IMG/VR virus record: IMGVR_UViG_3300022939_001455
Span: 1-41,147 of that record
Direction: 5' to 3' (one strand)
Source: a virus
Length of the DNA: 41,147 nt
The position numbers and the translations under genes were made by a program. Within the stretch, counting starts at the first letter, position 1, and each line of letters starts with the position of its first letter. The notes below the pieces were generated by a model. It searched no databases. It saw nothing but the letters and a program-made list of their open reading frames with translations, and was not told the DNA's origin. Below are positions 2 through 15,635 of the stretch, piece by piece.

Positions 2-694
2 GATGCTAATATGATGGATACTTCTCTTGATGATTTAAAAATTATGCCAAGAGATGTATATGAAAAACGAATTAATCGTATTAAAGATAAAACAACTGGT
101 AAACTTGTTGTAAAAGAATATCCAACTGGTTCTGCTCATGCTGGACATTTCCGACATCTATTAAATGAATTAAAGATGAAACGTGGATTTACTCCAGACG
201 TTATCTTTATTGATTATTTAAATATATGTGCTTCATCTCGAGTTAAAGGCGCGGCTCAAGCAAACTCTTATACACTTGTAAAATCAATTGCAGAAGAAAT
301 TCGTGGTCTTGCAATGGAGTTTAATTGCGCTATTGTAACATCTTCTCAATATAATAGAGATGCTTATGGAAACTCTGATGTAGATCTTACAAATACTTCA
401 GAATCTATGGGTATTACTCATACCGCGGATTGTATACTTGGTATTATATCATCTGAAGATCTTGATAATCTTGGCCAAATTATGTTTAAACAATTGAAAA
501 ATCGTTGGAATGATTTGAACTATTATCGTAGATTTGTAGTTGGTATTGATAGATCTAAAATGCAAATATATGATCTCGAAGATAATGCACAACAAAATAT
601 TCAAAATGATAATCCAACTGCTAATACAACACCAAATGGACCAGCTTTTGGACAATCTAAGAAAACATTATTCTCAGCAGGCGGCATTGTATAA
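2..694 (+). CDS. 41: Replicative DNA helicase, T4 gp41-like (C-terminal part)
   Basis: This is the C-terminal part of a DnaB/gp41-type hexameric helicase that unwinds the phage replication fork and pairs with the gp61 primase (encoded at 16275). The frame is open to the left edge, so the N-terminus lies outside the window; the first internal ATG is at 11. The RecA-like core is recognisable from the Walker B stretch VIFIDYLN and the following SQYNR segment, which resembles the DnaB motif H3/H4 region. A Gln/Asn/Pro-rich tail of about 40 residues ends the protein. T4 gp41 is 475 aa; about 231 codons are seen here. Identification is by family resemblance from memory. Confidence 0.88.
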   Translation, partial: DANMMDTSLDDLKIMPRDVYEKRINRIKDKTTGKLVVKEYPTGSAHAGHFRHLLNELKMKRGFTPDVIFIDYLNICASSRVKGAAQANSYTLVKSIAEEIRGLAMEFNCAIVTSSQYNRDAYGNSDVDLTNTSESMGITHTADCILGIISSEDLDNLGQIMFKQLKNRWNDLNYYRRFVVGIDRSKMQIYDLEDNAQQNIQNDNPTANTTPNGPAFGQSKKTLFSAGGIV

Positions 695-697
695 ATA
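690..697 (+). promoter_or_regulatory. T4-type late promoter box TATAAATA
   Basis: An exact match to the T4 late-promoter -10 element (recognised by gp55-loaded RNA polymerase in T4). It overlaps the helicase stop codon and lies 24 bp before the ATG at 722. The same box precedes 7170, 11792 and 15363. In such AT-rich DNA chance matches occur, so the support comes from the shared placement in front of head-type genes. Confidence 0.6.
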
Positions 698-721: not shown

Positions 722-1543
722 ATGAAGGGTTTTAAAAAATATATCAATGAAACAGTTGGCGTGGGCGGTCTTGCGTATGAAGCAAAAGTACGTAAGTCTG
801 TAATTCAAACTTTAAAAAACAGAGCGTTTTCAAAAGATAAACGTATTACTCTTAAACCAGACAATGCTGGTGGATTTGCTTCTAATGTAGTAGATATGTA
901 CCTTACTTTAGATGGTAAAGATGTTCCTGTAGAAATTAAAATGGATAAAGATGCTCAAATGGGCGGACCATCTGTTAAGATTAATAAAGGAAAACCATAC
1001 GGACTTTCAAAAGCAGGTGAAGATCTTGAAGATGATGTACAAGAAATGATTATCAATGCTGTTAAGTCAAAAGAAAGACCTATCAGAAATTATATCAAGC
1101 AAATGAAAACGCTAGAGCCAATTGAGCTACATAAGCAAGCTGGCGTATACGAAGTTCCATTCAAAACAACAAAAGAAGCTTGGGCAATATTACAGAAAAA
1201 AGGTTTACTCAAACCTATCAATACTATAGTTAAATATAATACTAAATTTATTCATGATTGGTATGCAAGAAAAAAATGTTATTATATTCAAATTGGTAAA
1301 TTGGGTATGTTCTATTTACAAAAAAATCCATTAGGTTTAAAAATTCCACAACTTAAAGCAGATATAGAAATTTATGTTCGCTTGACTCGTTCTGGTTCTG
1401 GCGGAACTAAAGCATATCCAACACAAAGATCATCTCAAATCAGAGCAATTGCTAGTCTAAAAGTAAAAGGTGGTAAATCTCCATTATCTTTAGATAATCC
1501 AAAAGATGTAGAAGAAATATTTAATCAAATGATGAGCAAGTAA
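722..1543 (+). CDS. PD-(D/E)xK nuclease-like protein with capsid-targeting-like N-terminus
   Basis: A 273-aa protein not recognised as a named family. Residues E20, D58 and E71-I-K73, within beta-strand-like surroundings, fit the helix-E, D, ExK pattern of PD-(D/E)xK nucleases, so a DNA-cutting or DNA-binding role is possible. The N-terminus (MKGFKKYINE) resembles the short capsid-targeting sequences of T4 internal head proteins, and I8-N-E10 fits the I/L-x-E site of the T4 prohead protease gp21. A TATAAATA box lies just upstream, which fits late expression. The next gene at 1545 carries a similar nuclease-like signature. The fold and the packaging are both inferred from short motifs only. 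Confidence 0.5.
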   Translation: MKGFKKYINETVGVGGLAYEAKVRKSVIQTLKNRAFSKDKRITLKPDNAGGFASNVVDMYLTLDGKDVPVEIKMDKDAQMGGPSVKINKGKPYGLSKAGEDLEDDVQEMIINAVKSKERPIRNYIKQMKTLEPIELHKQAGVYEVPFKTTKEAWAILQKKGLLKPINTIVKYNTKFIHDWYARKKCYYIQIGKLGMFYLQKNPLGLKIPQLKADIEIYVRLTRSGSGGTKAYPTQRSSQIRAIASLKVKGGKSPLSLDNPKDVEEIFNQMMSK

Positions 1544-1544
1544 A

Positions 1545-2552
1545 ATGGCAACATTTACTGCTATGAATTTTCCTCGCGAAGGCAATGAAGATTTTAATAG
1601 AGCAGGATATAGAACAGTATATGCTCCGTCATCAAATGCAAATACTTTTAAATATGCAAAAGGATTTCCATTAGCACAAGATACATATTTGTATACTGAT
1701 GATGGTCAGCCTATAAGAAAACTAAATAAAGGTTCTCATGTTCATTTCTTATATCCTTCTAGATTAGTTCATAATTTAGATATAGGTATTTCTAGAAGAG
1801 GTACATATAGCGCCATTTCTACTAAAAGTCATAAAGGTAGAGTAGAAGGATATATTTTAATTAGTCATGTAATTAAACCAGCCGGCGGAGCACAAAATAG
1901 AGTTGCTTCGGGTTCAGCCTCACAAAAAGCTGTTGCTGATGCAGTACAAAATATAGCATTCAAACATGATTATGATTATAAATTTATTTCTATGGCTAGG
2001 CCGGGATCTAATGCGCCAGATTTAATATGTGAAGTCGATGGCCACAAAACTCAGTTTGAAATTAAAGGCGCCGGAAGTGATAATGCACCTATTACATTTT
2101 TTGATAAATCGGTAAGTAGGATTAGAAAAACTCCAAAAATTATAGATGATATATCAAAATTATTTGCTACTCATAATAAACTTAAATTAGTAAAAAAAGA
2201 TTTTGTTAGTGTTATTGATTATTTTAGAGCAGAAAATAACGAGTTTGGGTTTCCTGGAGATGATGGAGCTCCAAAGTCCGGTAAAATACCACCATTTTTT
2301 ACAACAACAAGTAGACCATTATTATTAAAATTACATAAGTTAATATTACGTCATTTTGCTGAAGGTGGAGATAACTACTTTGTAATAAATAATAGAAGTA
2401 ATAATACTTTTAAATTTTATTATACTGAATACGGGCAAAATATTTTGCATTTAAAAGATCTTCCAGAGTTTAGTTCTTTTTCATTAGCAACATATGGTGG
2501 AGCTTCTAGTGGATCTATGCGCGCAGGTTTAAAAATAAAATTAAGAGATTAA
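1545..2552 (+). CDS. PD-(D/E)xK nuclease-like protein
   Basis: A 335-aa protein starting one base after the preceding stop codon, so translation is probably coupled. The middle holds a clear PD-(D/E)xK-type core: P158-D159, then E172-I-K174 after a short turn, as in Holliday-junction resolvases and restriction-type nucleases. Residues about 55-110 are beta-rich and end in GYILISHVIKP, which could be a small SH3-like barrel. It lacks the capsid-targeting-like N-terminus seen in the genes on either side. Function is inferred; a DNA-processing nuclease is the best guess. The C-terminal 150 residues carry no motif I recognise. Confidence 0.5.
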   Translation: MATFTAMNFPREGNEDFNRAGYRTVYAPSSNANTFKYAKGFPLAQDTYLYTDDGQPIRKLNKGSHVHFLYPSRLVHNLDIGISRRGTYSAISTKSHKGRVEGYILISHVIKPAGGAQNRVASGSASQKAVADAVQNIAFKHDYDYKFISMARPGSNAPDLICEVDGHKTQFEIKGAGSDNAPITFFDKSVSRIRKTPKIIDDISKLFATHNKLKLVKKDFVSVIDYFRAENNEFGFPGDDGAPKSGKIPPFFTTTSRPLLLKLHKLILRHFAEGGDNYFVINNRSNNTFKFYYTEYGQNILHLKDLPEFSSFSLATYGGASSGSMRAGLKIKLRD

Positions 2553-2594
2553 AAACGTTGTACTTTTTAATAAAAATAGGTTATAATATAACTA

Positions 2595-3827
2595 ATGGTT
2601 AGAACATTTAAACAACATTTAACAGAAGATAAAAATGTACATATGGAACACCTCGAAGATTCTATACTGAATCTTGGTGTTGATGGTACACGCTCTGCAA
2701 TTAATTTTTTGCGCAGTGTAAGAGATATGTTGGCAGGTAATGCTAAATCTGGTGTAAATGTAACAGTTAAATGGGATGGTGCTCCTGCAGTATTTGCTGG
2801 AACAGATCCTGAAGATGGTAAATTCTTTGTTGCGAAGAAATCAATTTTTAATAAAGTACCAAAAGTATATAAAACAAATGCTGATATAGATGCAGATACT
2901 GATGGTGATTTAAATGCTAAATTAAAACTTGCTTTAGCCGAGCTACCTAAACTCGGTATTAAAGGAGTTGTACAAGGTGATTTTTTATATGATAAAAAAG
3001 ATATTAAAACGGTTAACATTATGGGAGTCCCGCATATTACTTTCCATCCTAATACGATTGTTTACGCGGTACCTAAAGATAGTGACCTCGCGAAAGAAAT
3101 CCTCGGATCCAAGATCGGAGTGGTATGGCACACAACATACACAGGAAACTCAATTAAAGAACTGTCTGCTTCTTTTGGAAAAGAGATTGCAAGCGGTCTC
3201 AAAAAAACGAAAGGAGTCTGGTCAGTAGATGCTGTCTATAAAGATGTTTCTGGTAATGCTACAATGACTGGAAAAGAAACTGCTTTTGTTACTAAAAAGC
3301 TTTCAGAAGCTGGTATGTTATTTAGAAAAATTAAAAAAGAAACATTTAATGGTATTTCAGATAATCCTGATACATTAATGAGAGTTAAAACTTTTATTAA
3401 TACAAAAATTAGAGAAGGCCAACGAATTGGAAATACGAGAATATTTGTTAAGCAATTACAGGACTATATAAATAATGTATATCAAAAAGATGCAGACAAA
3501 AAGAAAACAGAGAAGGGTAAGGCAAGTTCGTTTGCAAAACGTGATGCAACTTTGGAGTATTTCAAAAAAACACCCGCATCTCAGATAACAATGATGTTTG
3601 ATTTGTATAATTTAATTATAGATATTAAACATATAATTATTAGTAAATTAGATAAAGCAAAGAGAATAGGAACGTTCTTAAGAACAGATAATGGTTATGA
3701 AGTAACAGAACAAGAAGGTTTTGTTGCAATCGATCACATGGGTAAAAACGCAGTTAAACTTGTTGATCGTCTTGGATTTAGTAGAGCTAATTTCTCAGAC
3801 AAATATATTAAAGGTTGGCAAAAATAA
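2595..3827 (+). CDS. Ligase-fold covalent nucleotidyltransferase (putative RNA/DNA ligase-like)
   Basis: A 410-aa protein with the spaced motifs of the ATP-dependent ligase/capping-enzyme superfamily: motif I K59-W-D-G62 (the lysine that would carry AMP), a motif III-like V-Q-G-D-F at about 126-130, motif IV-like E373-G-F-V, and motif V-like K387-L-V-D-R. A 100-200 residue insertion separates III and IV. The N-terminus (MVRTFKQHLTED) resembles T4 capsid-targeting peptides, with L9-T-E11 as a gp21-type cleavage site. This protein group is usually called unknown in marine phages. It could seal RNA or DNA or adenylylate another target. The ATG has no good Shine-Dalgarno. The stop abuts the next ATG. 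Confidence 0.6.
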   Translation: MVRTFKQHLTEDKNVHMEHLEDSILNLGVDGTRSAINFLRSVRDMLAGNAKSGVNVTVKWDGAPAVFAGTDPEDGKFFVAKKSIFNKVPKVYKTNADIDADTDGDLNAKLKLALAELPKLGIKGVVQGDFLYDKKDIKTVNIMGVPHITFHPNTIVYAVPKDSDLAKEILGSKIGVVWHTTYTGNSIKELSASFGKEIASGLKKTKGVWSVDAVYKDVSGNATMTGKETAFVTKKLSEAGMLFRKIKKETFNGISDNPDTLMRVKTFINTKIREGQRIGNTRIFVKQLQDYINNVYQKDADKKKTEKGKASSFAKRDATLEYFKKTPASQITMMFDLYNLIIDIKHIIISKLDKAKRIGTFLRTDNGYEVTEQEGFVAIDHMGKNAVKLVDRLGFSRANFSDKYIKGWQK

Positions 3828-4565
3828 ATGGCTCAATATTATCCAAGTGAAGATTTACATCTAAATATAGCAAGAGGACTTGTTAAAGGTACTTCATTTA
3901 TCCACAAGTTTGGTGCCGTTCCTGCTTTAAGTATTAATGTAACGGGGTCGGTTTGGGATATTAATGATACATTGTATCCTTGGGCAGCATTAGATACTCC
4001 TGCTGTTGTGAACGTTAAAAGAAATAACATAGCAGACGAAGGTCATACAGTTACAGTTCAAGGCTTGGATTCTGATTATAATTTTCAAGAGGAAGAAATT
4101 GTAATTTCAGGTACTGACACTCTTAGTACTAAACTATTCCGTAGAGTAAATCGCGCATTTTGTACTGCAGGTGGTGAAACAAATACTGGCAATATTGATA
4201 TTGAAGCAGGCGCAGCTGGCGGAACAATTGTTGCTCGTATTACTGCAGGTAAAGGTCAAACACTAATGGCTGTTTATACTGTTCCTGCAGGAAGTACGGC
4301 ATATATTACACAAGGGGTTTCTTCAGTTCAAGGTGGCGGGCAAGCAACAGGTGATATGATGATTCGCCAATTTGGTCAAGATACTTTCCGTGTTGGGCAT
4401 AGTTTTGAAGTAACTTCAGATGGTGGAGCTTATTTCTATCCATTCAGTGTCCCTGTAGCAGTATCTGAAAAATCTGATATTGATGTTAGAGCAAAAGCTG
4501 CTGGTAATAATTCTCGTGTTACTTCAGCATTCGATATAATTTTAATTAAAAATGGACTTGGCTAA
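3828..4565 (+). CDS. Putative virion structural protein
   Basis: A 245-aa, Gly/Thr/Ala/Val-rich, beta-strand-rich protein with no transmembrane or catalytic motif. The start codon follows the preceding stop directly. Composition (few Lys/Cys, many short alternating hydrophobic strands, repeated GGT/AGG turns) is typical of phage tail or decoration proteins. I recall similar proteins annotated as structural in marine T4-like phages, but cannot name the component. It sits between the ligase-like gene and the surface-modification cassette, so an attachment structure that becomes modified is conceivable, though that is speculation. Confidence 0.45.
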   Translation: MAQYYPSEDLHLNIARGLVKGTSFIHKFGAVPALSINVTGSVWDINDTLYPWAALDTPAVVNVKRNNIADEGHTVTVQGLDSDYNFQEEEIVISGTDTLSTKLFRRVNRAFCTAGGETNTGNIDIEAGAAGGTIVARITAGKGQTLMAVYTVPAGSTAYITQGVSSVQGGGQATGDMMIRQFGQDTFRVGHSFEVTSDGGAYFYPFSVPVAVSEKSDIDVRAKAAGNNSRVTSAFDIILIKNGLG

Positions 4566-4607: not shown

Positions 4608-5168
4608 ATGGGTATAATTCGTGACCGTGGTAATGATGGTGGCAATATTTGGAGATGGGACACTCTCATCAGATTCATTAAAGAAAACAATTATAAAACA
4701 GGCGCTGAACTTGGAGTGCACGATGGTGTAAGCTTCAAAAATATGGTAAAACGTTGTCCTGAATGTAATTTAGTTGGTGTTGATTTATATGAATCACAAC
4801 CAGAAAATAATGGTCCAGAAAAATGGACACCAGGCGAAAATGGACATGCTTGGGATCATAAACGTTATTACACAGATTTATTAAACTTTTGTCATAATCA
4901 TGATAACGCTGTTATTATTAAAGATTATACAACAAATGTCGCAGAACAATATCCAGACGGCCATTTCGATTTTGTATTTATTGATGCTGATCATGGATAT
5001 GAAGGTTGCTTAAGAGATATTAAAGCTTGGCACCCTAAAGTCCGTGAAGGCGGTAGAGTTATTGGTCATGATATTCACTTTCCTACAGTACAAAAAGCTG
5101 TTACAGAATTTTACGGAGAAAACTCTTGGAACACCGAAGATGATTTCATTTGGTGGATTCAAAAATAA
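4608..5168 (+). CDS. Class I SAM-dependent methyltransferase
   Basis: A 186-aa protein with a class I methyltransferase core: motif I around residues 26-31 (AELGVHDG, binding S-adenosylmethionine), an acidic end of beta-2 (GVDLYE), then a DFVFIDADHGYEG segment and a REGGRVIGHD strand. This pattern matches the Methyltransf_24 group, which often acts on sugars or small molecules. A GGAG Shine-Dalgarno precedes the ATG. Its stop overlaps the next start by one base, and it opens a four-gene cassette with two glycosyltransferases and a sulfotransferase, so a glycan substrate is likely. The exact substrate cannot be told. Confidence 0.75.
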   Translation: MGIIRDRGNDGGNIWRWDTLIRFIKENNYKTGAELGVHDGVSFKNMVKRCPECNLVGVDLYESQPENNGPEKWTPGENGHAWDHKRYYTDLLNFCHNHDNAVIIKDYTTNVAEQYPDGHFDFVFIDADHGYEGCLRDIKAWHPKVREGGRVIGHDIHFPTVQKAVTEFYGENSWNTEDDFIWWIQK

Positions 5169-5812
5169 TGATTGAAAAGAAACTTTCACAAATTTGGATT
5201 GGTCCAAAGCCTGCTCCATTAAAATGGATGTATACTTGGAGAGATAAACATCCAGGCTGGGAGTATTCTATTTTTACTGATGAAATGTTAAAATCTCGTA
5301 AGTGGCATAATCAACATTTAATAGAACATTATTATAATACTGCAAAATGGCCTGGCGTTTCCGATTTAATTCGTTATGAATTATTGTATGAACGGGGTGG
5401 ATTTTGGCCTGAAGCAGATATGGAATGTTTAAATGACACTACAGAATTATTTGTAGCACCTGACGATCATGCATATACATGTTATGAAAATGAAAAAGGT
5501 AGAGAAAACTTTGTACAACCAATTATGGCTGCTAATCCAGAAAATCAATTTGTTAAACATATAATTGATACACTTCATAAATTAAAACCACAAGATCTTA
5601 AAGAACCTTGGATGTCAACAGGGAATGCATTTCTTGCAAATCATGTTGTTAATTGGAAAGATAAATTAACTATATGGCCTTCACATTGGTTCATCCCTTT
5701 ATTTTATATTGGTGGAGCAAAGCGCTATGACGGACCTGATAAAGTGTATGCAGACCACAAATGGGGGTCCACAGGCCATGCAAATAGTGTATCATATGAT
5801 AGAGGAATATAA
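5168..5812 (+). CDS. Glycosyltransferase, GT32-like (DXD sugar transferase)
   Basis: A 214-aa protein resembling the short GT32/Gly_transf_sug group: IPKxIHQIW-type opening (here LSQIWIGPKP, residues 6-15), WEYSIFTDE, then SDLIRYELLYERGGFW at 65-80 followed by E82-A-D84, a variant of the usual metal-binding DXD. It would transfer a sugar from a nucleotide donor in the cytoplasm. I chose the ATG at 5168 because it overlaps the previous stop (TAATG) and starts where family members start; the TTG at 5150 would add six residues inside the previous gene. The Asp-to-Glu change in the DXD may alter metal use. Confidence 0.72.
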   Translation: MIEKKLSQIWIGPKPAPLKWMYTWRDKHPGWEYSIFTDEMLKSRKWHNQHLIEHYYNTAKWPGVSDLIRYELLYERGGFWPEADMECLNDTTELFVAPDDHAYTCYENEKGRENFVQPIMAANPENQFVKHIIDTLHKLKPQDLKEPWMSTGNAFLANHVVNWKDKLTIWPSHWFIPLFYIGGAKRYDGPDKVYADHKWGSTGHANSVSYDRGI

Positions 5813-6471
5813 TGTATATATCACACAAATATAAATTAATATTTTTAAGAACACCTAAAACAGCAAGTAGTAGTTTATCAGAATTTTTTATTAAAAATAT
5901 TCCTGATGATTACGCGATTTATACTCCAGTAGAAGATTCTAATATTCCTGGAACGTTAAATCCAGATATTATTAATAAGTATAAAATTAATTTTAAATAT
6001 TATCATTTTACATTAGAAGATTTAGTTAATAATGAAATTATAACAGAAGAACAAGCAAAAACATATAAATCATTTGCTGTTATAAGAGATCCAGTTGATA
6101 GACAAAAAAGCTTTTATTATTTCTATAAAAACTGGAAAGGTAGGCATTCACCTGCATCATTAGATGAATATAAAGCCTGGACTTCAAATGGTTCATTTAT
6201 TGGAGAACCAAACTCTGCTATTAAACAAACAGATATTCTTTCTATAAACGAAGAAATTATTGGTAATTATTGGTTATATGAAAACATAAATGATGAATTA
6301 AATAATCTTATGAATGAATTACATTTGCCTGTTAAGTATCCATTAACTAATCATAAAAATGGTTATAGAAAAAATAGAGATAATGAAATTGTATTTGATG
6401 ATCAGTCTATGAGTGATTTAAGAAATGCATTTACTAAAGACTTTGAAATATATGAAAGCTTACATTCTTAA
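5812..6471 (+). CDS. Sulfotransferase family protein
   Basis: A 219-aa PAPS-dependent sulfotransferase-like protein. Residues 13-21 (RTPKTASSS) match the 5'-phosphosulfate-binding loop (PKTGSTS type), and IRDPVDR near residues 91-97 matches the 3'-phosphate-binding motif. It would move a sulfate group from PAPS to a sugar or another hydroxyl. The start overlaps the previous stop by one base and the end overlaps the next gene by 20 bases, so the four-gene cassette is translationally coupled. Sulfotransferases are found in some marine phages. Acceptor unknown; a host or virion glycan is the reasonable guess given its neighbours. Confidence 0.75.
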   Translation: MYISHKYKLIFLRTPKTASSSLSEFFIKNIPDDYAIYTPVEDSNIPGTLNPDIINKYKINFKYYHFTLEDLVNNEIITEEQAKTYKSFAVIRDPVDRQKSFYYFYKNWKGRHSPASLDEYKAWTSNGSFIGEPNSAIKQTDILSINEEIIGNYWLYENINDELNNLMNELHLPVKYPLTNHKNGYRKNRDNEIVFDDQSMSDLRNAFTKDFEIYESLHS

Positions 6472-7135
6472 AATTGATACACCTATTTCAAATGAGTATG
6501 CTAAAACATGTGCAGACTCTTGTGATAAAGTAGGATTAAACTGGGAATATTTTAATGGATACCAAAATATGACCGGTGCTGCAGCATGGGGATTAACAGG
6601 TATTAAAACTCAATTTAATGAAGCTTATCGTTATATAGAAAATCCAAATGCTGCTCAAAAAGCAAATGCTTGTAGTGCTGGACATGCCGCAATATGGAAA
6701 AAAATTGCAGAAGGTCCAGATGATATTGGTATTGTATTAGAACATGATGCAATAATGCTTCAACCAATAACTATTCCTATTCCTGAAAATATGATTGTAA
6801 CTCTTGGTTATAAAATGCCAGATATAGAAAGATATGATCATGTTGCAGCAGGCCTTCCTACTGAAATTATTCCTATTCGTGGTCATGAAGGTGCGCATGC
6901 ATATGCAATGACTAAAAATACTGCGCAGTTTCTTGTAAACGAAATAGAAGCAAGAGGTGTTATGAGTGCAGTTGATAATGCTTATTTTATTATGGGACAA
7001 AGAAGTACTAGAGTTCCATTAGGAATAATGTCACCTACGCCTGCAATTGGTTGGTTAAGAGAATCAACAATCTGGGGTGGATCAGCATATAGAAACTATA
7101 ATTTTATACCTTCCTTTCAGGAAAATTATAAATAA
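6452..7135 (+). CDS. Glycosyltransferase, GT25-like
   Basis: A 227-aa protein resembling the GT25 (LPS biosynthesis) family: MKAYILKID opening, ACSAGHAAIWKKI at about 73-85 (family version ACxxSHxxxWKKI), V-L-E97-H-D99-A in place of the DXD-type LEDDA, and GAHAYAMTKNTAQFLV, which matches the family's GTxAYxISxxxAxxLL. I prefer the ATG at 6452 over 6425 because family members begin with this strand and the earlier ATG lies deeper inside the sulfotransferase. A TATAAATA box overlaps its stop and belongs to the next gene. It closes the glycan-modifying cassette. Confidence 0.68.
   Translation: MKAYILKIDTPISNEYAKTCADSCDKVGLNWEYFNGYQNMTGAAAWGLTGIKTQFNEAYRYIENPNAAQKANACSAGHAAIWKKIAEGPDDIGIVLEHDAIMLQPITIPIPENMIVTLGYKMPDIERYDHVAAGLPTEIIPIRGHEGAHAYAMTKNTAQFLVNEIEARGVMSAVDNAYFIMGQRSTRVPLGIMSPTPAIGWLRESTIWGGSAYRNYNFIPSFQENYK
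7127..7134 (+). promoter_or_regulatory. T4-type late promoter box TATAAATA
   Basis: Exact T4-late -10 consensus at the end of the GT25-like gene, 35 bp before the ATG at 7170. Placement is like the boxes before 722, 11792 and 15363, all putative head genes. Confidence 0.6.
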
Positions 7136-7169: not shown

Positions 7170-10100
7170 ATGGCAGACAAGCCAAAAAAGGGTAAAAAGA
7201 GTTTTAAGTCTTTTAACCCAAAGAACATTATTGACGTAAAACCAACACTTGATGAAGCTGTAAAGAAAACGGCTGTAATTAGTTTTGGTAGAATGAATCC
7301 AATTACTATTGGTCATGAAAAGTTAGTAGGAAAAGTTACTACAGAAGCTAGAATGAGAAAAGGAACTCCTATGATTTTCTTAACTCATTCAGAAGATGCT
7401 AAGAAAAATCCTTTATCATATAATGATAAAATTAAATTTGCTCAAAAAGCATTTGGTAAAATTGTAGTAAAATCTCCAGCAAGAACAATTATCGAAGTTA
7501 CTAAATATTTAACTGGTAAATATAGTAATCTAGTAATGGTTGTTGGTTCTGACAGAATTAAAGAATTTGAATCTCTATTAAACAAATATAATAATAAAGA
7601 GTTTAAATTCGACAATATAGAAGTAGTATCATCTGGCGATAGAGATCCAGATGCAGAAGGCGTAACTGGCATGTCAGGTACTAAGATGAGAGAATTGGCA
7701 TCTAAAAACGACATTACTGCATTTACTAAAGGCCTTCCTAATAGATTAAAACCCAATGCTAAACAAGTATTATTAGCAGTAAGAAAAGGTATGAATATGT
7801 CAGAAGAAAATATAGTAGAAGAGCAAGAATTAGACGAAGCTTTAAGTAGAATGGCTCGTCGTAAACGTTCAATCGCTGCAAGGAGAGCACGTTTTAGAAT
7901 GAAGCGTGGTAGAGAAAGAGCGAAAAAGAGAGTTGCTTCTTTAGATGTACTTAAAAGACGTGCTCGTAAAGCTGCTATTAAATTTTTTAAGAAAAGATTT
8001 ACTAAAGGTAGAAATTATAATACAATGTCTGCTGGAGAAAAAGAAATCATTGATAAGAGAGTAGAAAAGATTAGTAAAAAACGTTTAGACCAAATCGCTC
8101 GTAAACTTCTTCCGAAGATTAAGAGAAAAGAATTAGATAGACGTAAAGCTATGATGGCACGCCAAACTAAAAATGAAGAAGTACATTTAGAAGAAGCTTC
8201 AAAAGCTGATACTAGAGTTCGTAAGCGCCCACACATGATGATGGATTCAAAAGGAGCTGTTAAATTTGATGGACGTTTTAAAATTTATAAGAAAAAAACA
8301 GTTAATGAATCAGTTGAAGATGAAGTAGTAGATTTAATGGAATCTACAGAAGCTTTTGCCAATTCAGTATCACCAGAGCAAATTGATGAGTTATCAAAAG
8401 AAAAATTAGCGGGATATGAAAAGAAAGCTAGAACTTCTGCCATAGTTAATGCTCTTAAGTTTGGTAAAAAAGCTCATGATAAGTATAAGAAAAGAGAAGC
8501 TGGTTTAAAGAAAGCATCAAAGAAAACTGGTACTCAATATTCAAATGCTTGGAGGCATGAATCTAATGCTAGTGGCGAAAAAAATCTAGAATTAGATAGA
8601 GAAAGAGCTGCAAAAGCAAAATTAAAGCCTAATGATCGTGCTAAAATAGATGCGATCAAATCTATGATGAAACACGCAAATGAAGAAACACAAATTGATG
8701 AATTATCAAATGATCTTTTACAAAGATATGATGATGCTAAAGAGAAAAAACATAGACAACCTGATGGTTCAACGAAATATAAAAGTGTACATCAATCATT
8801 GAAACGTACTGTTGGTGGTATTCGTTCTTTAAAAAGACAAGCAGGTTTTAAAGCACCTACTAATAAAGTTTCAAGAGCAGATCACTTTGCTGCATACGGT
8901 AAAGATGGACATAAAGTTGTAGCAAAACATAATAAAAAAGTAGCAAGAGAATCAGTTGAATATGATTTAAACGAAGATGCAAAAGTTATTGCTCACTTAG
9001 TTAAAAAAGGTTTAAATCCTAAAGATGCTGCAGCTTCTACAAAGAAACATTTACCTTATGTTAAAAAAGCATACGGTAACCTTTCACCTGCTCAAGCTGC
9101 CGCAAAAGTCAGTATGGCAAGAGCAAATGAAGAAAAACAAATCGACGAATTATCAAAAGATACATTAAAATCATATCGAAAAAAAGCTGATAAATCAGCA
9201 GTTGATAGTTTAACAAGTAATGATCCTAAGCAAAAATTAAAATACGGGAAAAGATTAACTGGTATGGGTAGAGCAACTAAAAGATTGAATAAAGAAGAAA
9301 AACAAATTGATGAATTATCAAAAGATACTCTTATGAAATACTCTGATGCTGCTTCTAAAGATCTTATGAAAGCAGTACATGGTGATAAAACTTCTAACAT
9401 CTATAAAGTTAATAAAACCTCAAAATCTGGTAAACCATTAACAGTCCAAGGTATTAGACGTAGACAAAACAAAAAATTTGATAGAAGAACATCACAATCA
9501 GGTGATGCATATCGAAAAGCACAAGCAATGGAAAGTGTCGAGCAAATTGATGAATTATCAAAAGATACACTTGGTAGTTATATTGGAAAAGCAACTGATG
9601 ATAAAAAAGCTTGGAAAGATACTAGAAAAGCTTTTGCAAAAAAAGGTTATAAAGATCATGGATTTGAAAACTCAAAAATAGCAAAAAGAAATACGGGTAT
9701 TAAGAAAGCAGCATCAAGATTGACTAAAGAAGATACACAATTTGATGAATCAATACATCACGATATAGATCATTCAGATCCAGATTTTAAACGTCTATTG
9801 AAAAAACACAATGTTACTCATAGTGTAGTTAAGAGAGGTCCACAATCTGGTGATAGTATTAAATTACATGGTGATAAAAAGAATGTTCAACATGTTTCAA
9901 AGGTATTAAGAAACCCAGAACAGCATCAAAATGAAGCATGGTCTCCATTAAGTAAAGGCACTCAAGATCATATTGCTGATGTTCAACAAAAGAGAGCAAA
10001 TGATCTTAAGAAATTAAGAGATGCAAAAAGAGCTAAGAATCCTACTTTCATGGATAAGTTTAAAAAAGGATTTAAGAAAGAAGATACAGAACAATTAGAT

Positions 10101-10625
10101 GAATTAAATCCTTCAACATTAGGAAGATATAGTCGTGCAGCTGCAAGAGATGTGGGTATTACTAGTGATCATAAAAGAATTAAAAAGCGTCTAAAAGGTA
10201 TCGATAATGCTACTCATAAGCTTGCTATGAAAGCAATTAGAGGTGGCGTAAGAGAATCGAAAGTACCTTTTGATCCTCCATATAAAAAGGTTAAAAGCGG
10301 TACTACTATAGATAAATCAGGTGCTAAACATACTCCAATGTCTAAAGCTCGTCATTTAGCTCAAATGGCTATTAAACAAGCAATGGATAAAAAGCAGAAA
10401 AAAGAAGATGTAAACGAAGCTACTTGGAGTGTTGATGTTGCGGGCATGCCTAAATTTTATGTCGATGGTAAATCACAAGGTGATGTCAAAAAAGAACTAC
10501 GCAAATTAATCAAATCCGATAAAATTAAAGAAATTATAGTTAAAAGAGTTCAGCCGATCGAGGTTAGAAAAGATTTTAGACAAAGATCTCAAGATCCATC
10601 TGGTAAAGCAGAAACAGAAGAATGA
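7170..10625 (+). CDS. Nucleotidyltransferase fused to a repeat-rich putative internal-head polyprotein
   Basis: A 1151-aa, very Lys/Arg-rich protein. Residues about 34-200 form a cytidylyltransferase/NMNAT-like domain: G40-R-M-N-P, then T46-I-G-H49 (the T/HxGH signature) and SGTKMRELA as the ISSTxxR-type motif. The remaining 950 residues are basic, low-complexity segments separated by acidic stretches with Q-I-D-E-L-S (near residues 404, 508, 658, 712, 792) and variants (Q-L-D-E-L near 975, L-D-E near 219, Q-F-D-E near 857, L-E-E before 350). Each fits I/L-x-E, the cleavage rule of T4 prohead protease gp21. I infer a late, packaged polyprotein that delivers a nucleotidyltransferase plus basic peptides. 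An alternative is a scaffold-type core protein. Substrate unknown; NAD or nucleotide metabolism is plausible. Confidence 0.6.
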   Translation: MADKPKKGKKSFKSFNPKNIIDVKPTLDEAVKKTAVISFGRMNPITIGHEKLVGKVTTEARMRKGTPMIFLTHSEDAKKNPLSYNDKIKFAQKAFGKIVVKSPARTIIEVTKYLTGKYSNLVMVVGSDRIKEFESLLNKYNNKEFKFDNIEVVSSGDRDPDAEGVTGMSGTKMRELASKNDITAFTKGLPNRLKPNAKQVLLAVRKGMNMSEENIVEEQELDEALSRMARRKRSIAARRARFRMKRGRERAKKRVASLDVLKRRARKAAIKFFKKRFTKGRNYNTMSAGEKEIIDKRVEKISKKRLDQIARKLLPKIKRKELDRRKAMMARQTKNEEVHLEEASKADTRVRKRPHMMMDSKGAVKFDGRFKIYKKKTVNESVEDEVVDLMESTEAFANSVSPEQIDELSKEKLAGYEKKARTSAIVNALKFGKKAHDKYKKREAGLKKASKKTGTQYSNAWRHESNASGEKNLELDRERAAKAKLKPNDRAKIDAIKSMMKHANEETQIDELSNDLLQRYDDAKEKKHRQPDGSTKYKSVHQSLKRTVGGIRSLKRQAGFKAPTNKVSRADHFAAYGKDGHKVVAKHNKKVARESVEYDLNEDAKVIAHLVKKGLNPKDAAASTKKHLPYVKKAYGNLSPAQAAAKVSMARANEEKQIDELSKDTLKSYRKKADKSAVDSLTSNDPKQKLKYGKRLTGMGRATKRLNKEEKQIDELSKDTLMKYSDAASKDLMKAVHGDKTSNIYKVNKTSKSGKPLTVQGIRRRQNKKFDRRTSQSGDAYRKAQAMESVEQIDELSKDTLGSYIGKATDDKKAWKDTRKAFAKKGYKDHGFENSKIAKRNTGIKKAASRLTKEDTQFDESIHHDIDHSDPDFKRLLKKHNVTHSVVKRGPQSGDSIKLHGDKKNVQHVSKVLRNPEQHQNEAWSPLSKGTQDHIADVQQKRANDLKKLRDAKRAKNPTFMDKFKKGFKKEDTEQLDELNPSTLGRYSRAAARDVGITSDHKRIKKRLKGIDNATHKLAMKAIRGGVRESKVPFDPPYKKVKSGTTIDKSGAKHTPMSKARHLAQMAIKQAMDKKQKKEDVNEATWSVDVAGMPKFYVDGKSQGDVKKELRKLIKSDKIKEIIVKRVQPIEVRKDFRQRSQDPSGKAETEE
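8370..10150 (+). repeat. Diverged tandem protein modules with QIDELS boundaries
   Basis: Within the 7170 gene, the nucleotide words coding E/Q-Q-I-D-E-L-S-K recur near 8376, 8686, 9133, 9298, 9541 and, diverged, 10086. They are spaced about 160-450 bp apart, each followed by D-T-L-x-x-Y-like codons and then a Lys-rich region. The units are not identical, so they look like old duplications under selection rather than recent slippage. A further unit (VELDEISQETLKSY) occurs in the 11792 gene near 12958. Confidence 0.75.
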
Positions 10626-11755
10626 TTTCTTTTAAAAAACACCACGGCGAAACCTTAGAGGAAGGTGTTAACGATCCTGCTATTTTTAAAGTAGTCTTTA
10701 CGGCGGGAGGTCCAGGTAGTGGTAAGTCATTTACTGCTCATATGGCTGGTCTTGTTCCATTAGGTTTTAAAGTAATTAATATTGATCCAGCATTTGAAAA
10801 AATGATGAAAGATGCCGGTTTAGATACTTCTAAACCAAACGAAGTTTTTTCAGATAAAGGTCAACAAATCCGTAAACTTGCAAATAATGTTGTAGGTACT
10901 CAAAAGAAACTTGCTTTAGAAGGCCGTCTTGGTCTTTTAATCGATGGTACTGGTAAAGATTATAATAAAATTAAAAGTCAAGTAGTAGCATTTAGAAGAA
11001 TGGGTTATGAATGCGCTATGATCTTTGTTAATACTGATCTTGAAACAGCAATCAATAGAGATATAGAACGAGGTAAAGGACCTGGTGGCCGTACACTTGG
11101 AAAACCAATGGTAAGTAAAATGTGGAAAGATGTGCAAAAGAACATCGGTAAATTCCAAAACTTATTTAAAGGCCAAATGTATATTGTTGATAATAATGAA
11201 GGAACAGATATTAGACAAGCCACATTACCAGTATATAGAAAGATTTCTGCTTGGGCTAAAAAAGAACCTCGCATGCCACAAGCAAAAGCTTGGATTACTG
11301 CAGCAAGAATGAAAAAAGAAGAGCATGGAGCAGGTGATAGAGGGACAGACGAATTAGTAAGTAATTTTAAAGCAGATACTCCAGGTGAAAACGGTAAAAA
11401 AGTAAAAATTACTAAACCTTCTACAAATGACGAATTATTACAAGAAGGTATTGCAAAAGACTTGCTCAAAGATATTGCAAAGATTGCAATAGGTAAAAAA
11501 CGTTTCCATGATTTAAAACGCATGGTTAATAAAGACAAATATAAATTTGCTGTTACTCAATATAGAAAAATGAAAAAAGATGTTAGAAGTTCTGGTGGAC
11601 CAGAAAAATGGATTAATAAACATGGATTGGGTAGAGGTGCAAGATTAATGCCAGGTATGTTAGATAATTATTTAAAAAATACTGCAGCAGATTTAGCAGG
11701 CATTACTCCAAAAGAGTTCAATGCGGTTTTAAATAGAAACACAAGATATAAGTAA
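10622..11755 (+). CDS. P-loop kinase (zeta-toxin-like) with capsid-targeting-like N-terminus
   Basis: A 377-aa protein with Walker A G29-G-P-G-S-G-K35-S near the N-terminus, an INIDPA strand that resembles the substrate-side Asp of zeta-toxin/UDP-GlcNAc kinases, and a FVNTDLETAINRD segment with lid arginines (RDIERGKGPGGR). It would phosphorylate a small molecule or nucleotide using ATP. The last 150 residues are basic and have no known domain. The N-terminus (MISFKKHHGETLEE) resembles T4 capsid-targeting peptides, with L12-E-E14 as a gp21-type site. The start overlaps the 7170 stop by four bases (ATGA), so it is co-translated with that head-type polyprotein. Packaging is inferred. Confidence 0.65.
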   Translation: MISFKKHHGETLEEGVNDPAIFKVVFTAGGPGSGKSFTAHMAGLVPLGFKVINIDPAFEKMMKDAGLDTSKPNEVFSDKGQQIRKLANNVVGTQKKLALEGRLGLLIDGTGKDYNKIKSQVVAFRRMGYECAMIFVNTDLETAINRDIERGKGPGGRTLGKPMVSKMWKDVQKNIGKFQNLFKGQMYIVDNNEGTDIRQATLPVYRKISAWAKKEPRMPQAKAWITAARMKKEEHGAGDRGTDELVSNFKADTPGENGKKVKITKPSTNDELLQEGIAKDLLKDIAKIAIGKKRFHDLKRMVNKDKYKFAVTQYRKMKKDVRSSGGPEKWINKHGLGRGARLMPGMLDNYLKNTAADLAGITPKEFNAVLNRNTRYK

Positions 11756-11763
11756 TATAAATA
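11756..11763 (+). promoter_or_regulatory. T4-type late promoter box TATAAATA
   Basis: Exact T4-late -10 consensus in the 36-bp gap after the kinase stop, 28 bp before the ATG at 11792. It is intergenic, unlike some of the other copies, which strengthens it. Confidence 0.65.
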
Positions 11764-11791: not shown

Positions 11792-13630
11792 ATGAAATCA
11801 TTTAACAGTTTTAAAGAAGCTATGGATCCGGTTAATAAAGCGGCTCTTAAAAAGAAACATAAAGAGCGTAAAGACCAAGATATTAATAATGACGGTAAAG
11901 TTAACGATACTGACAAATATTTACATAACCGCCGTCAAGCAGTAACACAACAAATAGGTGAAAAATTAAAAGCTTCTGATGATATGGGTAAGTGGATTGA
12001 TGATTTCCAAGACTCTGATGCACCTCAATTTAAAGGTAAGTCCAAAGAAAAGAAACGCCAAATGGCTATTGCAGCTAAGCTAGATGCAGAAAAAAATGAA
12101 AGTTATAAGTCATATGCTCAACAAAAAGCAGTATGGGCATCTCGTAAAGATGGTGGTAAAGGACATCCTGATAATAAAAAGAAAAATGAATCAAACGTTG
12201 AAGAAGCTAAGAAAATGAAAGGCGAAGATCCTTGTTGGGATAGTCATGAAATGGTGGGCATGAAAGATAAGAATGGTAAGAAAGTTCCGAACTGTGTACC
12301 AAAAAATGAATCAGCAGAAAACAGAGTTGACGTAATTAGAGCAGTAGCTCAAAAAATTGCTATGGAAAAAGAAGCAAAAAGAAAAGCGGCTGAGAAAAAA
12401 GCAGAAGCTGATGCTAAAAAAGCAATGGCTAATGAATCAAAAGATCCAAATAGATATGATGATGGTCCAGGTGTAGATCCAAATAGATATGATGATGGTC
12501 CAGGCGTAACACCTAAAAAGAAAAAGACTATAAAAGAACTATCAAATAAAACACAGAGCGAAGGATATACAGGTGGTCCTCATGATGCTGATTGGGTTAA
12601 TAAATCTGAAAAGTTAGAAAGAGCTAGAAATAGAGCTAAGAGAATGGGTGATCATAAAAAACACGCAGAACTAGATGCTCAAATTAAACAACACTATAAG
12701 CGCGGACCTGGTGTGCGTGAAGCAGTAGATCCACAGGATAAAGGTGAGTATGATGATGAGGGTGGTATGGCACAAACTCAAATCAATAAAATCATGGATG
12801 CTGCAAAAGAATTAAAAGGTATAATCGGTAAAGACGATAATCTACCTGAGTGGGTGCAATCTAAAATGACTAAAGCATCTGACTACATTGATGGTGTTCG
12901 TGATTATCTTAAAAACAAATCAGACACTAACGAAGCAACTATGCCTTATACTGAAGAAGTAGAGCTCGATGAGATTTCACAAGAAACTTTGAAGTCATAT
13001 AAGAAGAAAGCAACATCAGATGCTGTTACTAATATGATTGGCGGTCAAGGTTCTGTTAAGAGACTAGACAAGAGAATCAAAGGCATGAAAATGGCTGATA
13101 AAAGATTAAATAAAGAAGATTATAAAGAAATATTTTTAAATTATATTTCTGAAAATACTCTTACTTTAGAAGATCTTAATAACTTTAATGATGAGCAACT
13201 TGATGAAATGATTGGTCAAGCAATGAAAAGCGCTGGCCGTATGACTGCAGATAAAAGAGCAGATGCCGCTGAGAAAAAAGCTAAGTCATTACAAAATCAA
13301 GTAAAAGATGTTGCAAGATTAAAAAAAGCTAGAAATGCTCAAACAAAAGCTAGATTAGCATTGAGAAATGCAAGACGTAATGTTGCATCAGCTAGAGCAG
13401 CAATTAGAACTGAAAGTAGTTGTGGAAGTAAAAAGAAGCACATGAAAGAGGCAGGACCGAATCCTACAGGTGGCGCAACTAATGCTACATCTGGTTCTAA
13501 ATCAACCACAAATACTACAAAGCCTAGTACTGCTAAAAAAGGAACAGTTTTAAGAAAAAGCTATTCTAAAAAAGATCTATCGACTCCAGCGAAAACTGCT
13601 ACGCCGATTGATTTAACTGTACAATTTTAA
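11792..13630 (+). CDS. Modular, EF-hand-like, putative internal-head polyprotein
   Basis: A 612-aa Lys/Ala/Asp-rich protein. It opens with MKSFNSFKEA, like T4 capsid-targeting peptides. D30-x-N-x-D34-G-x-V-x-x-x-D41 is a good EF-hand/dockerin calcium loop. Further parts are a Cys-containing DPCW..VPNC segment near 147-170, a tandem 11-residue repeat near 218-239, a module at about 317-375 (EYDDEGGMA to YLKN), a QIDELS-like module (V-E-L-D-E-I-S, about 390) shared with the 7170 protein, and a Ser/Thr/Lys-rich tail. I recall similar modules scattered through marine T4-like phage proteins annotated as hypothetical or prohead-like. It has its own late-type box. A head-packaged, protease-processed protein is inferred. 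Confidence 0.5.
   Translation: MKSFNSFKEAMDPVNKAALKKKHKERKDQDINNDGKVNDTDKYLHNRRQAVTQQIGEKLKASDDMGKWIDDFQDSDAPQFKGKSKEKKRQMAIAAKLDAEKNESYKSYAQQKAVWASRKDGGKGHPDNKKKNESNVEEAKKMKGEDPCWDSHEMVGMKDKNGKKVPNCVPKNESAENRVDVIRAVAQKIAMEKEAKRKAAEKKAEADAKKAMANESKDPNRYDDGPGVDPNRYDDGPGVTPKKKKTIKELSNKTQSEGYTGGPHDADWVNKSEKLERARNRAKRMGDHKKHAELDAQIKQHYKRGPGVREAVDPQDKGEYDDEGGMAQTQINKIMDAAKELKGIIGKDDNLPEWVQSKMTKASDYIDGVRDYLKNKSDTNEATMPYTEEVELDEISQETLKSYKKKATSDAVTNMIGGQGSVKRLDKRIKGMKMADKRLNKEDYKEIFLNYISENTLTLEDLNNFNDEQLDEMIGQAMKSAGRMTADKRADAAEKKAKSLQNQVKDVARLKKARNAQTKARLALRNARRNVASARAAIRTESSCGSKKKHMKEAGPNPTGGATNATSGSKSTTNTTKPSTAKKGTVLRKSYSKKDLSTPAKTATPIDLTVQF
12443..12508 (+). repeat. 33-bp direct tandem repeat, two copies
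   Basis: Two adjacent in-frame 33-bp units (12443-12475 and 12476-12508) differ at one base (GTGTA versus GCGTA near the end). Each encodes the 11 residues DPNRYDDGPGV. The near-identity means a recent duplication inside the 11792 gene. Confidence 0.95.
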
Positions 13631-13674: not shown

Positions 13675-13992
13675 ATGGCACTTTGGGGAAAAACGGATTC
13701 AGCAGATGATGCACCTAAGTATTTAAGCACTGACGCTAATAATCCAAACAAATCTAACGACAGAGATAATGCTATTTTTGTAGATACAACAGAAGCAGGT
13801 GTTGCTAGTAACCGTGCTAAAGGTATTAAGACTCCAGGTTGGAATTTGTATAACACATATACAACCGAGTCTGGTAATACTCGTCATATTGTTGAGCCAT
13901 TAGTAGCAATGAAAGTTTCTTCTGGCGATGCTGGTGACGCTGGTGTTACGGGTAATACAGCTGTTGAAGATACAATTGTAGCTGATAGTTAA
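13675..13992 (+). CDS. Small conserved protein, possible virion component
   Basis: A 105-aa protein opening MALWGKTDSADD, with a strong AAGGAG Shine-Dalgarno just upstream. The composition is acidic with Gly/Thr/Asn-rich beta-like segments. A NLYNTYTTESGNTRHIVEPLV stretch precedes a GDAGDAG tail. No catalytic motif or membrane segment is visible. Proteins with this opening are, from memory, widespread in marine T4-like phages near head and neck genes, without known function. The position after the putative head polyproteins and before a gp67-like gene suggests a late structural gene. Confidence 0.5.
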   Translation: MALWGKTDSADDAPKYLSTDANNPNKSNDRDNAIFVDTTEAGVASNRAKGIKTPGWNLYNTYTTESGNTRHIVEPLVAMKVSSGDAGDAGVTGNTAVEDTIVADS

Positions 13993-15317: not shown

Positions 15318-15325
15318 TATAAATA
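15318..15325 (+). promoter_or_regulatory. T4-type late promoter box TATAAATA
   Basis: Exact T4-late -10 consensus starting two bases after the PG-binding gene, 37 bp before the ATG at 15363. Same placement as the other late-type boxes. Confidence 0.6.
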
Positions 15326-15362: not shown

Positions 15363-15635
15363 ATGTCTTTAGAGAAAATTGTAGCGGAAGCGATGGCAGG
15401 CCGCCCACTAGAAATGAAAGAAGCTTTCGAGGAAGCTATCGAAGAGCGCATTCAAGCAGCATTAGAAGCTAAAGTAGCTGAAATGCAAGCAGGAGATGCT
15501 GAAGAAGAAGTCACAGAAGATGCTGACGTTGAAGATTCAGAAGCGACTGAAGATCTAGACGAAGCAAAAGATTGTGATGACGACGAAGACGAAGATGATG
15601 AAGACGAGGACGAAGACGAAGACGAAGATAAGTAA
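15363..15635 (+). CDS. 67: Prohead core protein, gp67-like
   Basis: A 90-aa extremely acidic protein. The N-terminus (VAEAMAGRPLEMKEAFEEAI) is helical, and the last 35 residues are almost only Asp and Glu. This matches the size and layout of T4 gp67 (about 80 aa), a small acidic component of the prohead scaffold that gp21 degrades on maturation. A late-type box and AAGGAG precede it. In T4 gene 67 is followed by 68, 21, 22 and 23, but here none of these follows. The acidic tail alone is not specific, so another acidic scaffold or DNA-mimic protein remains possible. Confidence 0.55.
   Translation: MSLEKIVAEAMAGRPLEMKEAFEEAIEERIQAALEAKVAEMQAGDAEEEVTEDADVEDSEATEDLDEAKDCDDDEDEDDEDEDEDEDEDK

Follow-up and report, generated by a model that had tools for sequence, protein, structure and literature searches.

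What is encoded at positions 2595-3827 of this viral DNA, and could its product enter the host cell together with the phage genome? The window analysed here, i.e. the whole stretch of 41,147 nucleotides, is a 41-kb virus fragment whose replication genes (DnaB/gp41, primase, NrdA/B and thymidylate synthase) are T4-like. An initial annotation had described the gene product as an unrecognised ligase-superfamily protein with a targeting-like start.

An uncharacterised family, DUF6267

The protein was matched to Pfam PF19782, DUF6267, with an E-value of 4e-112 and 375.7 bits (cut-off 27) over profile positions 1-373 of 376, and its PHROG is phrog_455; T4-GC71 is the cyanophage cluster name equated with both. 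The description as unrecognised was thus half right: the family is catalogued under these two entries, and neither has a function. No literature naming DUF6267 was found among papers accessible outside subscription. The family is known solely as a DUF, the tag system discussed below being already known from T4. Relatives were detected by tblastn in 468 phage records, the majority from T4-like cyanophages and the remainder from pelagiphage, methylophage, Vibrio and Stenotrophomonas phages and one Xanthomonas jumbo phage. In cyanophages the gene has a cytidyltransferase among its neighbours, as in the window; the Syn1-type cyanophage members are without an N-terminal tag, whereas the window copy is tagged. 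In phage P-TIM68 (L085:5001-5885) the annotated start of the DUF6267 gene is at MDGAPAV, with consequent loss of the motif I lysine; as the tblastn match starts upstream of it, this start has probably been called too late. The gene and the motifs considered below are as follows (n = 63 aligned sequences).

2595..3827, + strand: DUF6267 protein, predicted ligase-fold nucleotidyltransferase, 410 aa, ATG start (Pfam, motifs and model)
2595..2627, + strand: capsid-targeting-like propeptide MVRTFKQHLTE, residues 1-11, in the IPIII register, presumably cleaved after E11
2769..2780, + strand: motif I, K59-W-D-G; K59, D61 and G62 invariant
2973..2984, + strand: motif III, QGDF (127-130); Q127 and D129 invariant
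3714..3725, + strand: motif IV, E374-G-F-V; E374 and G375 invariant
3756..3770, + strand: motif V, K388-L-V-D-R; K388 and R392 invariant

Conserved nucleotidyltransferase motifs

Motifs I, III, IV and V are present in the order originally claimed, the positions given there as 373 and 387 being one too low for E374 and K388. Conservation was evaluated in an alignment of 63 sequences from three subclades, in which the relatives share 29-74% identity with the window protein. In all 63 the residues K59, D61, G62, P64, K82, Q127, D129, H179, T180, Y182, E374, G375, K388 and R392 are retained, a set that covers the catalytic positions of superfamily motifs I, IV and V, and an N-terminal signature of H16, H19 and E21 is likewise invariant. 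In the family as a whole the motifs take the forms QGD, EG[FY]V and K-x-[VI]-x-R, in ligase order. Judged from this invariance, the motifs are beyond chance. Motif III reads GE in classical ligases whereas DUF6267 carries QGD, a variant with D for E; this and the R that ends motif V were counted against the ligase reading.

Predicted fold

The AlphaFold2 model of the window protein, computed from the 63-row alignment (model 1), had a pLDDT of 85 and a pTM of 0.82, with residues 1-15 disordered; for a relative of 304 aa, in which the helical insert is shorter, the AlphaFold model (model 2) reached 92 and 0.87, respectively. VIA-align, employed as a second look at the candidates from Foldseek, returned ligase-superfamily enzymes in all 50 listed entries for both models, with RNA ligases on top. 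The best match was a Naegleria RNA ligase in either case, 6vt1 for model 1 (Z 8.2, 185 residues, 3.8 A) and 6vt0 for model 2 (Z 8.6, 180 residues, 4.1 A), a Z of 8 not being decisive alone, as values in that range are frequently obtained for models that have no clear match. These were followed by T4 Rnl1 (Z 7.2 and 8.1), Trl1 (7.5) and Rnl2 (7.6 and 7.3), with DNA ligases after. Foldseek against the PDB gave weak E-values of 0.2 for model 1 and 0.008 for model 2 (best match T4 Rnl2, 2hvr), and ligases occupied most top ranks. The case for the ligase superfamily is built on the consistency of the matches in two models in combination with motifs that are invariant and correctly ordered. On these predicted models, DUF6267 very probably has the ligase-superfamily fold, and the proposed assignment to the covalent nucleotidyltransferases is supported by models and motifs alike.

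Profile searches, put forward as a check together with structure prediction, matched no ligase family. Pfam, NCBIfam and PDB searches with DUF6267 (phmmer and profile) returned none, and a profile-profile comparison with T4 Rnl2 relatives by hhalign was negative (probability 0.2-0.3%); because of the latter result, membership is claimed at the superfamily level only. Matches to YehD (E 0.8) and to WEF-hand, RXLR and other weak Pfam entries were rejected as chance, and the PADLOC defence-system models gave no credible match.

As a further departure from classical ligases, the C-terminal architecture is reduced in model 1. Eighteen residues remain after R392 and the model ends in one helix, so that neither the OB domain of the DNA ligase or capping enzyme type nor a helical domain as in Rnl2 follows motif V. 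Helices are instead inserted, over ~125 residues, between the HT-Y block and motif IV; in model 2 this insert is shorter.

A capsid-targeting-like N-terminus

T4 internal proteins are loaded via an N-terminal capsid-targeting sequence (CTS) of 10-19 residues; in the CTS of IPIII, targeting involves residues 4 and 7, and processing residues 8 and 10 (PMC9026906). X04567 annotates the IPIII propeptide as MKTYQEFIAE, with A as the next residue. The window protein starts with MVRTFKQHLTE, followed by DKN, i.e. in the IPIII register shifted by one residue. This copy is atypical in having H at the equivalent of IPIII position 7, where most tags have F or Y, and D after the cleavage site. Among 84 window-type relatives, 80 carry the tag, with a propeptide ending in (I/L)xE.

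A first, looser tag pattern gave doubtful matches elsewhere, and a tighter pattern with shuffled, family and cyanophage controls was therefore adopted. It was applied to 886 ORFs, comprising every ORF in 80 window-type loci, in the window and in the DUF6267 block of the related phage C48C1; 157 of them carried the tag, where shuffled proteins predicted 0.8, and the tagged ORFs were distributed over more than 10 unrelated sequence clusters. The tag glutamate is residue 10 in 114 of the 157, as in IPIII; the first aromatic residue is F in 130, the second is Y or F in 153, and I or L comes next in 150. Tags were found in 13/14 HAD proteins, 5/5 and 2/5 members of two PD-(D/E)xK-like families and 12/16 phrog_2496-type proteins, and in none of the control families (gp41, 0/48; UvsX, 0/32; glycosyltransferases, 0/19). 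As the loci were collected via similarity to DUF6267, the 80 DUF6267 copies are related rather than independent observations; the other tagged families are independent.

In Syn1-type cyanophage loci the tag occurred on 1 of 648 ORFs, with 1.1 expected, and packaging via the tag is therefore not universal among these relatives. The S-H38-type loci showed it on 8 of 725 ORFs, six of which belong to one cytidyltransferase family adjoining DUF6267 (identified in L188). In these loci (L188:3943-5136, L189-L192 and L198) DUF6267 itself is untagged and the cytidyltransferase directly downstream carries the tag (MKNFKQFVTE, followed by A). Across the complete genome sequence of C48C1, searched with the looser pattern, six matches fell in the DUF6267 block (0.3 expected) and a single doubtful internal one outside it (1.6 expected). 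Among the products of C48C1 are a head maturation protease, a scaffold and a major capsid protein in which an LTE site lies ~57 residues in. The annotated start of its cytidyltransferase gene (L081:13625-15034), at 13691, misses the tag; translation from the upstream start at 13625 gives MIKNFSQYLLEEEREVYFTFGRMNP, a full capsid-targeting-like start.

The targeting-like start noted at the outset is a T4-type tag common to the window-type relatives and to several neighbours of the gene and controlled against background, and on this sequence evidence it is highly likely that DUF6267 is head-targeted. No report of such tags on enzymes of marine T4-like phages was found in literature open without subscription.

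Late promoter-like sites

The octamer TATAAATA, the T4 late promoter core, occurs in the window at 690, 3467, 7127, 11756, 15318, 17992, 33027, 38280 and 39946, with 9 sites on the + and 0 on the - strand. Two of these are of direct relevance for the genes discussed here:

690..697, + strand: TATAAATA, late promoter-like, 32 nt before the gene at 722 and heading the 722-4565 run
7127..7134, + strand: TATAAATA, late promoter-like, before the cytidyltransferase gene

The total equals chance (9 against 9.2 expected), whereas strand bias and placement exceed it: 7 of the 9 sites precede a gene start by 15-75 nt, a placement for which permuted 8-mers gave a mean of 1.5. Across the 80 loci the element was found upstream of 35/146 tagged ORFs (1.85 expected from permuted 8-mers) and of 59/551 other ORFs (7.2 expected). 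Late expression of this kind fits packaging.

Neighbouring genes

Several genes around DUF6267 encode enzyme-like proteins, many of them with tags or tag-like starts, and head and structural proteins are also among the window neighbours.

722..1543, + strand: putative PD-(D/E)xK nuclease, phrog_26930, tagged (MKGFKKYINE, followed by T), with a D58...E71-x-K73 core
1545..2552, + strand: second putative PD-(D/E)xK protein, PDLIC-x9-FEIK, untagged; a relative in L031 is tagged
3828..4565, + strand: phrog_8198 protein, no function assigned, next gene of the 722-4565 run
7170..10625, + strand: cytidyltransferase with a long repeat-rich tail, phrog_3041 (E 2e-60) and phrog_455; LDE followed by A before the domain
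10622..11755, + strand: P-loop kinase (Zeta/AAA_33/PNK-like), tag-like start MISFKKHHGETLEE followed by G; PF06414 (E 1.6e-9), PF13671 (4e-8), phrog_505 (1.4e-7)
11792..13630, + strand: 612-aa protein, no function assigned, tag-like start MKSFNSFKE followed by A; TATAAATA at 11756

In the first of these proteins, residues G51, D58, E71 and K73 are invariant among tagged relatives of 22-26% identity, corresponding to the PD-(D/E)xK pattern, and the relatives of the P-loop kinase have an F..LxEG start in common. In other loci a tagged HAD protein with DxDxT, TAR and DD motifs lies directly upstream of DUF6267, often overlapping its start by 4 nt; it matched phrog_415, 'polynucleotide kinase' (E 1e-10), and only weakly T4 PseT (probability 15%). 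Sequence searches of the PDB with the HAD and nuclease alignments gave no convincing relative, a Holliday junction resolvase at E 0.24 being only suggestive, and the roles of both are for this reason based on motif patterns and PHROG/Pfam matches.

The cytidyltransferase is homologous to Syn1_161, T4-GC190 (35%, E 9e-24), a cluster that mass spectrometry identified in purified virions of cyanophage S-SM1 (PMC3037559). The tail of this 1151-aa protein has about six QIDELSxxTLxxY-like repeats ([IL]DEL); every repeat contains (I/L)DE, resembling a prohead-protease site, and from its sequence the protein is possibly a multi-cleaved head polyprotein.

Further observations concern the surrounding organisation. 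Tagged families without known domain occupy the position directly upstream of DUF6267 in L008:4075-5004, L027:1913-3202, L019:2823-4061 and L069:3961-4992; this slot varies while DUF6267 is constant, resembling a swap-in effector position. At 5150-7135 of the window a sugar-binding-region glycosyltransferase, a sulfotransferase and a family 25 glycosyltransferase follow in a row, all untagged and probably serving surface glycan modification. The gene at 15363-15635 encodes a charged 90-aa protein with the start MSLEKIVAEAMAGRPLEMKEAFEEA and TATAAATA at 15318, and its product looks like a small prohead core protein.

Proposed function and alternative explanations

Computation yielded the fold prediction, the motif invariance, the tag with its occurrence on neighbouring proteins, and the late-promoter setting. 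On that basis we infer, with moderate confidence, that DUF6267 is a head-packaged, injected ligase-fold nucleotidyltransferase acting together with end-processing enzymes. The protein would be synthesised late in this marine T4-like phage clade, drawn into the prohead by its cleavable N-terminal capsid-targeting sequence and trimmed after (I/L)xE by a gp21-type protease, whereupon the trimmed form would be packed with the DNA and then injected. It is likely to be catalytically active as a nucleotidyltransferase, with adenylylation presumably at the motif I lysine; a Lys59-AMP intermediate would most likely form, and nucleic-acid ends would be sealed, RNA (e.g. cleaved tRNA) being a somewhat likelier substrate than DNA. 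The partners delivered with it would be the HAD phosphatase, the P-loop kinase, the PD-(D/E)xK nuclease-like proteins and the cytidyltransferase. Given phosphatase, kinase and nuclease-like co-cargo, the function requiring the fewest assumptions would be end healing and sealing of RNA, such as tRNA cut by host defence, or of DNA. Cooperation of RNA ligases with kinases and HAD phosphatases in end healing and sealing is known from phages (PMC7824862), and myoviruses commonly inject enzymes (PMC9503650). As to substrate and biological role, which like packaging, cleavage, injection and adenylylation we infer, an end-sealing ligase is slightly favoured over other nucleotidyl transfer.

Such other transfer is the principal alternative. 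A head-packaged enzyme of the same superfamily might place AMP or GMP on a host protein, a tRNA or an RNA 5' end in a capping- or AMPylation-like takeover, as T4 Alt takes over the host by ADP-ribose transfer. The same tag and fold evidence would apply, and the lack of the OB or helical domain with which known ligases end and the D for E in motif III are in line with it, as are the family-specific invariant H16, H19, E21, H179 and T180, which suggest a special substrate. However, the best structural matches are RNA ligases and not capping enzymes, and phosphatase, kinase and nuclease partners suit end repair better, so this reading appears rather unlikely.

A ligase made in the infected cell and left unpackaged, its conserved N-terminus being incidental, would agree with the Syn1-type cyanophage homologs, which keep the enzyme core without the tag. 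It is nevertheless improbable in view of the tag on more than 10 unrelated neighbour families (157/886 against 0.8), in the IPIII register and with none on replication genes, the late promoters, and the presence of the partner T4-GC190 in virions (PMC3037559). That DUF6267 is a catalytically dead structural or scaffold head protein retaining an old ligase fold, as its divergent motif III, missing C-terminal domain and nearby head and structural proteins might hint, is very improbable with K59, D61, G62, E374, G375 and K388 invariant in 63 sequences down to 29% identity.

Significance

The ligase fold and motifs of DUF6267 together with a T4-type head tag, which is found also on enzyme-like neighbours, lead to the broader proposal that marine T4-like phages may inject a nucleic-acid processing kit. 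In its full form, namely that a modular set of DUF6267, HAD phosphatase, P-loop kinase, PD-(D/E)xK nuclease-like protein and cytidyltransferase is injected under one cleavable tag and acts on host nucleic acid or ends before phage gene expression, the proposal stands about even in our estimate. The combination of an enzyme of ligase fold with partners that share its capsid tag was not found for marine phages in the literature searched, and if head-delivered, DUF6267 would to our knowledge be the first ligase-fold enzyme delivered that way. A testable function is thereby offered for a DUF present in hundreds of phage records, and the tag accounts for its grouping with several unrelated proteins of unassigned function. 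With the tag consensus, candidate injected proteins can be read from sequence in many uncultured marine phages, and the old question of which non-DNA cargo T4-like phages inject becomes directly testable.

Comparison with known systems

NgrRnl from Naegleria, T4 Rnl1, T4 Rnl2 and the ligase domain of fungal Trl1 have the same predicted core and the motif order I, III, IV, V. DUF6267 differs from these ATP-dependent RNA ligases in its QGD motif, in the helices placed between the HT-Y block and motif IV, and in having no domain after motif V. The N-terminus of T4 Rnl2 carries no such tag, and we know of no packaging of the T4 RNA ligases or PseT in the head. In tRNA repair by T4 Pnkp (PseT) and Rnl1, the same healing and sealing logic of phosphatase, kinase and ligase is found; here the putative roles fall on separate proteins, and delivery with the DNA is proposed instead of synthesis in the cell. 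The closest parallel for delivery is provided by T4 IPI-III and Alt, CTS-delivered and gp21-processed, the propeptide register of IPIII, the cleavable (I/L)xE site and late expression signals being shared and a prohead protease being present in the related phage C48C1. Compared with the T4 internal proteins, the cargo would be a predicted ligase-fold enzyme accompanied by proteins resembling nucleases, phosphatases, kinases and cytidyltransferases.
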